From Gammaproteobacteria bacterium (GTDB lineage Bacteria; Pseudomonadota; Gammaproteobacteria; GCA-001735895), in contig QNFD01000094.1 of the NCBI GenBank assembly GCA_003645435.1, positions 1 through 8,918 of the forward strand: 8,918 nt of DNA, in the 5' to 3' direction. Position 1 is the stretch's first letter; each line of letters opens with the position of its first letter. Shown here piece by piece: positions 3,528 through 7,422 of the stretch. Below the pieces are notes generated by a model. It worked only from the letters and a program-made list of their open reading frames with translations, was not told the DNA's origin and searched no databases. The position numbers were made by a program, and so were the translations under genes.

Positions 3528-3942
3528 ACATGGGAACCTGGGGTTATGTTTTATGCCCTGATTTCAAAACCAAGGTAAGCTATAGGGAGTATTAGGACAA
3601 TTCCTTCAAATAACAAGCGCCGATAAAACCGTATTCAGATCGCATACGGGGTACCCTGTCCCAATGTTAGAAAGGTGTTACCACCAGCGGATTTGGAATC
3701 AGAGTCAGTCAATACTTGGTAATATAAAAATATATAAATATCAATAACTTACAAGTGACTGAGTAGGGCAGGGGTGTTGCCATTTACTGCCCCTTGGTGG
3801 ACTAAATTTGGTACCCGTCCTTTGTTTGGTTTTAGAATCGTTGCTAGGATAACTTCCGTGGTCATCATGACCATTAATTTATATCAAATAGATTACATAC
3901 CACAAAAAGATCTGTAAGACAGCCTTTCGGGGTTGAAAAGAT
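3528..3942. other. Intergenic region with an AT-rich tract
   Basis: This is 415 bp with no convincing gene on either strand. It lies upstream of the minus-strand oxidoreductase gene and downstream of the prepilin-like gene, so it should hold the oxidoreductase promoter and the prepilin terminator; neither is clear. Positions 3721-3747 are almost pure A/T and could be a promoter or an intrinsically bent segment. A dyad is annotated separately at 3859-3873. GGGCAG (3766-3771) pairs with CTGCCC (3787-3792) across a 15-nt loop but has no T-run. Confidence 0.5.
3859..3873. promoter_or_regulatory. Perfect dyad, possible operator
   Basis: TGGTCAT-C-ATGACCA is a 7+7 bp palindrome around a single central C in an otherwise featureless spacer. 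The short centre suits a dimeric DNA-binding protein better than an RNA hairpin. No regulator gene is nearby and no promoter is clearly attached to it. Confidence 0.25.
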
Positions 3943-4614
3943 TCATCGGCTTAGTAGCCGGAAGGCCATGTGGAAAATCCCCGTGTCAATGTACTCAATA
4001 GCTGCTGGCGTTGTGTTCGCGTCCATAGCGGTGCCTCCGCTAGCTAGCGCTGACCTGGTTCTACCAGTATTTAAAACACCATCATCCAGGCGCCTGTCAA
4101 GAATTCTGGCTATAGATCCGTCGATACTTCCTAAAATGACAACCTGACCAATCATTTCAAGAGAGCCCTGCTGAATACCGATCTCACCACCAAAAGCATT
4201 GATAGGCCGGTTTCTGTCGAAAGCACTACCAGTGATCAAACCTGCCGCCCTTAAATGTCCAAAAAATTTGGTAGTTTCCGAATCACCAGCGACCGCCCAG
4301 GCAGTATTGGAACGCCAGTCAGTACCGTCGCCAATTAATCCATCACCGTCTCCATTGTTGAGGGTGGCACCGGCATAAACTGTAAACCGATCCGAGGCAG
4401 TGCTATCATCACCGGGCAGTTGTAAGTAGCGATCCTGGTAAGAATAGAGCGCGGATATTAATCCCGCATTATCACTTTCAACGCGCTTCAGTTTTGTATT
4501 GGTAATCATTCCCTGGACTTTCAGTATTCCGCCGATCAGCAACCCAATAATGACCAGCACAATCGCGATTTCTACCAGGGTGAAACCTGCTTGTTCCTTT
4601 TTTAGTATATCCAT
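3943..4614 (-). CDS. Type IV prepilin-like protein (prepilin-type N-terminal domain)
   Basis: This encodes 223 residues. The short leader MDILKKEQAG ends in Gly10, followed by Phe11 and a hydrophobic helix FTLVEIAIVLVIIGLLIGG with Glu15 at position +5. This is the class III signal cut and N-methylated by prepilin peptidase (PilD), with the helix then packing into a pilus or pseudopilus. The globular part has YQDRYLQLPGDD (residues 59-70), NNGDGDG (86-92) and FFGHLRAAGLI (117-127), features of a minor pilin or pseudopilin subgroup. It has no cysteines, so the usual C-terminal disulfide loop is absent. The frame stays open to 4806, but I place the start at ATG 4614: a 10-residue leader is normal, whereas the longer version would begin inside the tRNA terminator. 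The ribosome binding site is poor. No other pilus gene is nearby, so its machine is encoded elsewhere. Confidence 0.85.
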   Translation of the reverse strand: MDILKKEQAGFTLVEIAIVLVIIGLLIGGILKVQGMITNTKLKRVESDNAGLISALYSYQDRYLQLPGDDSTASDRFTVYAGATLNNGDGDGLIGDGTDWRSNTAWAVAGDSETTKFFGHLRAAGLITGSAFDRNRPINAFGGEIGIQQGSLEMIGQVVILGSIDGSIARILDRRLDDGVLNTGRTRSALASGGTAMDANTTPAAIEYIDTGIFHMAFRLLSR

Positions 4615-4785
4615 ACGTCTACGCTCTACCAACTGATCTAACCCCGCATTCACCATAACAACAGGCACCAATCCACACATCACCCGTATAGGGTAAATCC
4701 ATACAGCTATTATGGTAATTGGGGTAGTGGGCTGGAACTGAAAAGAACCCCGCTCAGTGGCGAGGCTGCCGTTGACAAGGTTCTT
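4615..4785 (-). other. Leader region between the tRNA-Leu terminator and the prepilin gene
   Basis: This is about 170 bp. Just after the tRNA terminator, AAGAACC (4785-4779) can pair with GGTTCTT (4749-4743) followed by two further T, a possible weak second terminator. The prepilin promoter must lie here if the gene is independent. CATAAT occurs at 4709-4704 on the minus strand, but its -35 partner is poor. The tRNA-like stretch lies at the lower end. Confidence 0.3.
4622..4647 (-). other. tRNA-like 5' half (acceptor strand plus D-arm), probable remnant
   Basis: On the minus strand this reads GCGGGGT (acceptor strand), TA (positions 8-9), GATC, AGTTGGTA, GAGC, G, which is the layout of tRNA positions 1-26. 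AGTTGGTAGAGCG is identical to the D-loop region of many bacterial tRNAs. The D-stem has one mismatch (A11 opposite G24). No anticodon stem, T-arm or matching ACCCCGC acceptor strand follows; instead the prepilin gene starts 7 nt further on. It is therefore not a working tRNA gene. It may be a remnant of a tRNA recombination event or a chance likeness. Confidence 0.4.
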
Positions 4786-4820
4786 AAAAATGTAGCTAGG
4801 GGACAATTCCCCTAGCTAAA
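4786..4820 (-). terminator. Rho-independent terminator of the tRNA-Leu gene
   Basis: On the minus strand an 11-bp perfect stem, TAGCTAGGGGA (4818-4808) with TCCCCTAGCTA (4803-4793), closes a 4-nt loop. CATTTTT follows (4792-4786). It begins 4 nt after the tRNA CCA end. The T-run is on the minus-strand side, so it acts on the tRNA transcript and should isolate the prepilin gene from it. Confidence 0.85.
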
Positions 4821-4822
4821 AA

Positions 4823-5133
4823 TGGTAGCGGGAGGGGGACTTGAACCCCCACTCTGTTGCCAGAACTGGATTTTGACATTTATCTATCTACTTTCGCAGT
4901 AGTCGGACTATATCATCAACCTTATTGCTAAGGTGTTGGACGCTAAACCCTGTTATTAAGCAATCTCGCAATCGCTCAGGTAGTCTCTGAACCTTCCTAC
5001 TCCGTAGGCTTGGCTGCTGATTGGCATATTCTTACGAACTTAGCTTTCCAGCAATTCATCCAATTTAATCGACACAATTACTCATGAAGTGGACCCAACG
5101 ATCCAGCGTGTCTACCAATTCCACCATCCCGCC
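4823..5133 (-). tRNA. tRNA-Leu(CAA), interrupted by a group I intron
   Basis: The 5' exon is 5133-5101 (33 nt) and the 3' exon is 4876-4823 (54 nt). Together they give an 87-nt tRNA, the normal length for a class II tRNA-Leu. The acceptor GGCGGGA pairs with TCCCGCT (G1-U72 wobble, as in E. coli tRNA-Leu(UAA)), then A73 and an encoded CCA. The D-arm GTGG-AATTGGTAGA-CAC is of Leu type. The anticodon stem CTGGA/TCCAG closes the loop TTCAAAA once the exons are joined. This is the same loop as in E. coli leuX, with anticodon CAA reading UUG codons. The long variable arm is TCTG-GCAA-CAGA and the T-arm is GGGGG-TTCAAGT-CCCCC. Without splicing, the loop lacks U33 and the anticodon, so the tRNA would not work. 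The gene has its own promoter and terminator. Confidence 0.95.
4877..5100 (-). ncRNA. Group I intron in tRNA-Leu(CAA), 224 nt, no endonuclease gene
   Basis: This is a self-splicing ribozyme that removes itself with a guanosine cofactor. Pairings found by eye on the minus strand: P1, exon TGGAU (5105-5101) with GUCCA (5094-5090), giving U-G at the 5' splice site. P10, UUGG (5098-5095) with 3' exon UCAA (4876-4873). P3, UUGGAU (5063-5058)/GUCCAA (4941-4936). P4, UUGCUG (5054-5049)/CAGCAG (5019-5014). P6a, CCUAC/GUAGG (5008-4996). P7, the guanosine site, GACUA (4985-4981)/UAGUC (4910-4906). P7.1, CCUG/CAGG (4980-4949). P7.2, AGCGAU/AUUGCU (4976-4959). P8, ACCUUA-GCAA-UAAGGU (4934-4919). P9, CUACU/AGUAG (4902-4888). 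The R element GUUCAGAGACUA and S element GAUAUAGUCC are near consensus. The last base is G4877, the terminal G of this class. P7.1/P7.2 point to subgroup IA; that assignment is inference. Confidence 0.93.
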
Positions 5134-5146
5134 ATGTGAGGTGCGA

Positions 5147-5175
5147 ATTCTAAATCAAAATAAATCACAGTGATA
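5147..5175 (-). promoter_or_regulatory. Promoter of the tRNA-Leu gene
   Basis: On the minus strand TAGAAT (5152-5147) matches TATAAT at 5 of 6 positions, and transcription would start about 7 nt before the tRNA. The sequence after it, TCGCACC, is a GC-rich discriminator typical of tRNA promoters under stringent control. The -35 region (around 5175-5170) is poor. It overlaps the dyad ATCAC-A-GTGAT (5164-5174). Confidence 0.45.

Positions 5176-5269: not shown

Positions 5270-7422
<2,153 letters not shown>

Follow-up and report, generated by a model that had tools for sequence, protein, structure and literature searches.

Group I introns interrupt a small set of bacterial tRNA genes. The host tRNAs named in the passages retrieved from the literature are tRNA-Leu(UAA), tRNA-fMet, tRNA-Ile(CAU), tRNA-Arg(CCU) and tRNA-Arg(UCU) (PMC8450103, PMC3984707, PMC11835236, PMC5733544, PMC4033280, PMC4853749), and retrieved text on giant sulfur bacteria gives tRNA-Leu(UAA) and tRNA-Arg(UCU) as the hosts there (PMC4853749). 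Much shorter 'introns' of 22-49 nt appear, in the text retrieved, in cyanobacterial Arg, Gly and Lys tRNA genes (PMC5733544). Phage introns, according to the retrieved part of a 2014 review, occupy protein genes even though phages carry many tRNAs (PMC3984707). In the retrieved passages, tRNA-Leu(CAA) is not named among the bacterial hosts of group I introns, which is weak evidence of novelty because most subscription journals lay outside the search.

We analyzed a bacterial DNA stretch of 8,918 nucleotides, hereafter the window, in which a tRNA-Leu(CAA) gene is split by such an intron. Introns of the phage genes terL, nrdA, DNA polymerase and psbA, for example those of Vibrio phage 424E50-1, Shewanella phage 1/4 and Synechococcus phage S-PM2, resemble it in the core P3-P8 and group with it in a tree (99/99) whose alternative an AU test does not reject, but they interrupt protein genes where annotated, whereas the window intron interrupts a tRNA. 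The tRNA-Ile(CAU) introns of gammaproteobacteria and betaproteobacteria, of which we take that of Azoarcus to be the type case, resemble it in lying in the anticodon loop, in length and in the P7-P8 stretch; they differ in being inserted at 36|37 (29 of 31 as scored), in carrying a guide for CAU and in being at most 62% identical to it. The best-scoring bacterial relative, at 59 bits, is a tRNA-Lys(CUU) intron (L105), but this is inserted at 36|37 and is 59% identical overall. The tRNA-Leu(UAA) introns also lie in the anticodon loop of a leucine tRNA, but they are inserted at 34|35 (15 of 15 in the first survey set) and are no more than 48% identical. The insertion at 34|35 or 36|37 that characterizes the Ile(CAU), Leu(UAA) and Arg lineages is not found in the window, where the intron lies at 32|33.

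Results

The window is a piece of bacterial chromosome in which queA (5270-6319, plus strand; Pfam PF02547), tgt (6319-7422, plus strand; Pfam PF01702), yajC and the start of secD run rightwards, queA and tgt being conserved neighbours. To the left of this run, and divergent from it, lies the tRNA-Leu(CAA) gene at 5133-4823 on the minus strand, with a 224-nt group I intron at 5100-4877. The 5' exon (5101-5133, 33 nt) has U32 as its last base, and the 3' exon (4823-4876, 54 nt) extends from U33 to CCA. A terminator-like hairpin with a T run, read from the sequence, follows directly downstream of the tRNA on the same strand (4788-4818).

A reading made earlier from the letters of the window (the sequence-only reading) had claimed that a complete group I intron splits this gene, and had proposed a search with the Rfam model Intron_gpI. 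That search succeeded: the whole window at E <= 1 gave one match only, Intron_gpI at 4885-5173 on the minus strand, with 85.4 bits, an E value of 3.4e-21 and the full length of the model (positions 1-253 of 253). ARAGORN at default settings reported no tRNA in the window. With introns allowed (-i), it returned a tRNA-Leu(caa) of 87 bases and a 224-nt intron, both at precisely the positions stated above. The expectation that a standard scan would miss the gene therefore held for the default settings and failed once introns were allowed. The joined exons alone gave ARAGORN a complete cloverleaf with a CAA anticodon, a long variable arm and the loop TTCAAAA, in agreement with the 87-nt tRNA-Leu that the sequence-only reading had obtained by removing 4877-5100. 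No open reading frame of 60 aa or more in the window list overlaps the intron.

The intron is absent from the same gene in two relatives. In genomes G022 (locus L289) and G013 (L290, also L252), the tRNA-Leu(CAA) gene adjoining queA runs without a break and matches the joined exons at 87 of 87 positions, including 54 of 54 in the 3' exon for L290. This empty site is the strongest, model-independent proof of the boundaries, and together with the full-model Rfam match and the ARAGORN -i call it bears out the claim of a complete intron in this gene. It also places the insertion after position 32, between U32 and U33 and thus upstream of the whole anticodon. Among the best 80 loci with QueA homologues in GTDB genomes, 36 carried a tRNA-Leu(CAA) found by ARAGORN, and in none of these 36 was an intron called.

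The boundaries also have the form expected of a group I intron. Among nine junction shifts of the same length, only this one has a U before the intron and a G at its end. The last five bases of the 5' exon, UGGAU (5105-5101), pair with GUCCA (5094-5090) to form P1, with five pairs and a U.G at the splice site, and UUGG (5098-5095) pairs with UCAA of the 3' exon to form P10, with four pairs. Both intron strands belong to a single guide at 5090-5098 on the minus strand, the only one that a scan along the intron returned by the P1/P10 criteria. When the first 25 nt of the intron were shuffled, 309 of 200,000 shuffles matched the observed P1 and P10. The sequence-only reading had already pointed out the U-G pair in P1 and the P10 pairing.

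We then considered the ribozyme fold on an alignment of 13 sequences (A1), made up of the window and 12 viral introns (11 phage records and one IMG/VR contig). Nine helices, including the P7 pseudoknot, were 93.6% paired on A1 versus 79.5% in shuffles and 29.7-38.2% when helix partners were slid, a high pairing that is favoured because the structure was derived from A1 itself, with P7 added by hand. The conserved core helices P3, P4, P5, P6, P7 and P8 are present, as judged from the full-model Intron_gpI match and from the helices counted on A1. The window keeps 36 of the 41 A1 pairs; the missing ones are three in P2, one in P5 and one in P8. In P2, three of the six aligned pairs fail, and the stretch folds at only -0.9 kcal/mol; the P9 stretch forms a small hairpin. 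The guanosine-binding helix P7 consists of GACUA (4981-4985) and UAGUC (4906-4910), both on the minus strand, and its pairing on A1 is 100%, while two phage rows carry two-sided changes there. Folded without constraints, the precursor was more stable than shuffled sequences (z -2.46, 1 of 100 as good) and did not show the group I fold.

Matches to RF00028 were found in 55 of 369 genomes of the class, 9 of 41 of the order, 33 of 398 of the phylum and 2 of 8 reached through loci; these sets overlap, and in the large ones only about five candidates were scored per genome, so that misses are possible. We classified 77 places of the class, order and locus-reached sets, 69 of the class plus L081 and L083-L089, leaving out L090 and L091. 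Fifty-three of the 77 are tRNA anticodon loops, namely Ile(CAU) (31), Leu(UAA) (15), Thr(UGU) (4), Arg(CCU) (2) and Lys(CUU) (1), and Leu(CAA) is not a host at any of the 77. The phylum set gave 35 places, 30 of them with loci, and all 30 were classified: 26 score as tRNAs, namely Leu(UAA) (16), Arg(CCU) (6), Ile(CAU) (2), Arg(UCU) (1) and an unclear case (L260), again with no Leu(CAA) host among the 30. The doubt, voiced in the sequence-only reading, that a tRNA-Leu(CAA) case was known agrees with both surveys and with the literature passages retrieved.

Insertion sites were assigned by full stem scoring, which presupposes a U before the intron and a G at its end and which replaced an earlier, too permissive splice scoring. 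As scored, the 53 other tRNA introns lie at 36|37 (35), 34|35 (15), 33|34 (2) and 37|38 (1), and 32|33 was assigned to none of them. An apparent tRNA-Gln(CTG) host reported by ARAGORN -i in L081, L083 and L085-L088 is really tRNA-Ile(CAU), mislabeled because the junction was misplaced by two bases. The survey also turned up group I introns in tRNA-Thr(UGU) (L094, L096, L099 and L102) and in tRNA-Lys(CUU) (L105) of other gammaproteobacteria, and the literature passages retrieved do not mention group I introns of such length in either tRNA. A further group I intron lies inside a 23S rRNA gene in a genome of the same order (L084).

Searched with the intron, 50,697 phage records gave 170 matches at E <= 1e-3, and the best likeness among the 60 of these 170 that were listed was 86% over 119 nt (135 bits) in the ribozyme core P3-P8. 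We fetched 19 phage loci and examined the annotation at the intron match. The match lies in or beside pieces of terminase (L321, L324, L327, L330), ribonucleotide reductase (L320, L326), DNA polymerase (L328, L329, L333, L335), RNA polymerase (L332, L334) or psbA (L319, L323); L331 adjoins an endonuclease, and the annotation of L318, L322, L325 and L336 is uninformative, the gene labels of L318, L325 and L336 in the tree being guessed from likeness. Eighteen of the 19 loci pass the Intron_gpI cut-off, with L333 below it, and ARAGORN found no tRNA anywhere in the 19. One of them, L321 (Vibrio phage vB_VpaM_R16F), has four Intron_gpI matches in one terminase large-subunit region that is annotated as five pieces.

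In its sequence, the core of the window intron is much closer to phage introns than to any bacterial intron of the survey. Phage loci and 109 bacterial survey loci were ranked together in a single database; phage places took the first 20 ranks (135 to 69.8 bits), and the best bacterial places were the Lys(CUU) intron L105 (59.0 bits) and an Ile intron, L106 (56.3 bits). A direct search of the 369 class genomes reached a ceiling of 59 bits, with 8 genomes at E <= 1e-5. A P6-P7 motif, derived from the window and the phage introns, was absent from all 369 class genomes with up to 2 mismatches; its exact form occurred in 10 IMG/VR stretches and a second motif in 17, and none of the 26 viral loci bearing the motifs had an ARAGORN tRNA at the intron. 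A search for the same junction in viral contigs, by the P7 3' strand and a 3' exon pattern, yielded 89 IMG/VR stretches, and the 80 that were inspected by eye held no tRNA. The precursor had no match among plasmids at E <= 1e-5, nor did the intron among E. coli genomes at E <= 1e-3.

A joint tree of 76 introns used 22 of the 27 phage Intron_gpI matches, each without its first 20 nt. The window fell among the 22 phage introns, which had been chosen by similarity to it, with support 99/99, and the Lys(CUU) intron L105 branched off basally to them (96/97). Another account, which we consider possible but rather doubtful, is that a resident intron of the tRNA-Ile(CAU) type diverged and moved to tRNA-Leu(CAA), so that the phage likeness would reflect old shared ancestry. 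The P7-P8 stretch common to the window and the Ile(CAU) introns fits such an origin, and a grouping that unites the window and the bacterial rows was not rejected by the AU test (p 0.285, with lnL lower by 12). Without the phage rows, moreover, the window joined Lys(CUU) (92/87) within a clade of Ile plus Lys introns (97/90), on a branch of 1.36 that shortened to 0.32 once the phage rows were added. Set against this are the bit scores, in which the best Ile(CAU) intron and the best bacterial intron fall far below the best phage match, the top identities (62% over 222 columns to an Ile intron in the tree without phage rows versus 70% over 204 columns to a phage intron in the joint tree) and the lack of the P6-P7 motif in the class genomes.

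Two further QueA relatives stand at 99% (P0002) and 93% (P0003). In L001, the nearest of the 80 QueA loci (QueA 81% identical), the tRNA-Leu(CAA) is of another sequence type and is uninterrupted up to the contig end in the variable arm; similarity to L001 resumes at window position 5107 and continues rightwards at 80%. On the left, positions 3672-3700 on the minus strand hold 29 nt of a tRNA-Leu(CAA), from the anticodon loop to the variable arm, that match the L001 tRNA at 27 of 29 bases versus 20 of 29 for the window's own tRNA, and L291 matches this scar at 93%. Between this scar and the intron-bearing tRNA lies a pilin-like gene (PF07963; 3943-4614, minus strand). Because the scar matches L001 and L001 similarity resumes at 5107, we infer that about 1.4 kb, comprising the pilin-like gene and the intron-bearing tRNA, stands where one intronless tRNA was. 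The arrangement looks as if this segment had entered the old tRNA at the anticodon loop. The intron-bearing gene appears to have taken the place of an older tRNA-Leu(CAA) with a different sequence type. Positions 4768-4876 are 86% like L289, from which we infer that the window tRNA probably came from a relative like G013 or G022, both of which are intronless.

We also considered 3700-4822 as an obvious integrative element and set this idea aside: only the pilin-like gene could be read there, and no integrase is among the window ORFs. The pilin has matches in 34 of the order's 41 genomes, in some cases only to the N-terminal motif, and ARAGORN found no tRNA in 12 fetched pilin loci. The FAD oxidoreductase gene to the left has counterparts of 73-76% identity in five relatives, whose fetched stretches contain no tRNA.

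The scar, as a sign that the lineage once had a different tRNA-Leu(CAA), could also mean that the intron is degenerate or its gene silent and that a second, intact tRNA-Leu(CAA) elsewhere does the work. This is improbable, given exons that match the intact genes of two relatives at every position, core helices that are kept, and the state of the order of L001, in which an exact Leu(CAA) pattern has one match in 34 of 41 genomes, two in none and none in seven. tRNA-Leu(UAA) may also read UUG, and so absence of tRNA-Leu(CAA) need not be lethal. A chimeric contig, fused at a conserved tRNA gene, as might be hinted by the likeness of the right flank to L001 but of the tRNA and its 3' flank to G013 and G022, and by the listing of the window protein from contigs no longer than 8918 bases, is very hard to believe, since the guide fits exactly these exons, and the left scar and the right flank match the same relative with order and orientation kept.

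Discussion

We hold with good confidence that a chromosomal tRNA-Leu(CAA) gene in the window is interrupted by a group I intron that is complete and ORF-less, is predicted to splice and has a phage-like core, and that this gene seems to have displaced an older tRNA. It is a real group I intron, apparently new in its tRNA species and site, and likely new in lineage as well. The boundaries and the fold come from computation, and the splicing chemistry is taken from what the family does. By that analogy, the guide would form P1 by pairing with the 5' strand of the anticodon stem, and a guanosine bound in P7 would cut after U32. The freed U32 would then attack behind the last G of the intron, positioned by P10, to give the 87-nt tRNA.

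As to origin, the core is most like introns of phage protein genes, and for this reason we think it fairly probable that the intron descends from one in a phage and reached a new target, perhaps via reverse splicing or recombination. We lean slightly toward the fuller scenario, in which a ribozyme of a phage protein gene crossed to a bacterial tRNA and was re-aimed, with a new guide, the site 32|33 and a new host tRNA, while the mature tRNA would be left unchanged.

With this locus, the range of bacterial tRNA introns grows by one tRNA species and one insertion site, and its clean empty site makes the case directly testable. If the phage kinship is true, the locus would argue for phages as a source of ribozymes for host tRNA genes. 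If such a crossing took place, it would link two intron populations that have been described apart, and it would mean that a short intron lacking an ORF can switch both host genome and target.
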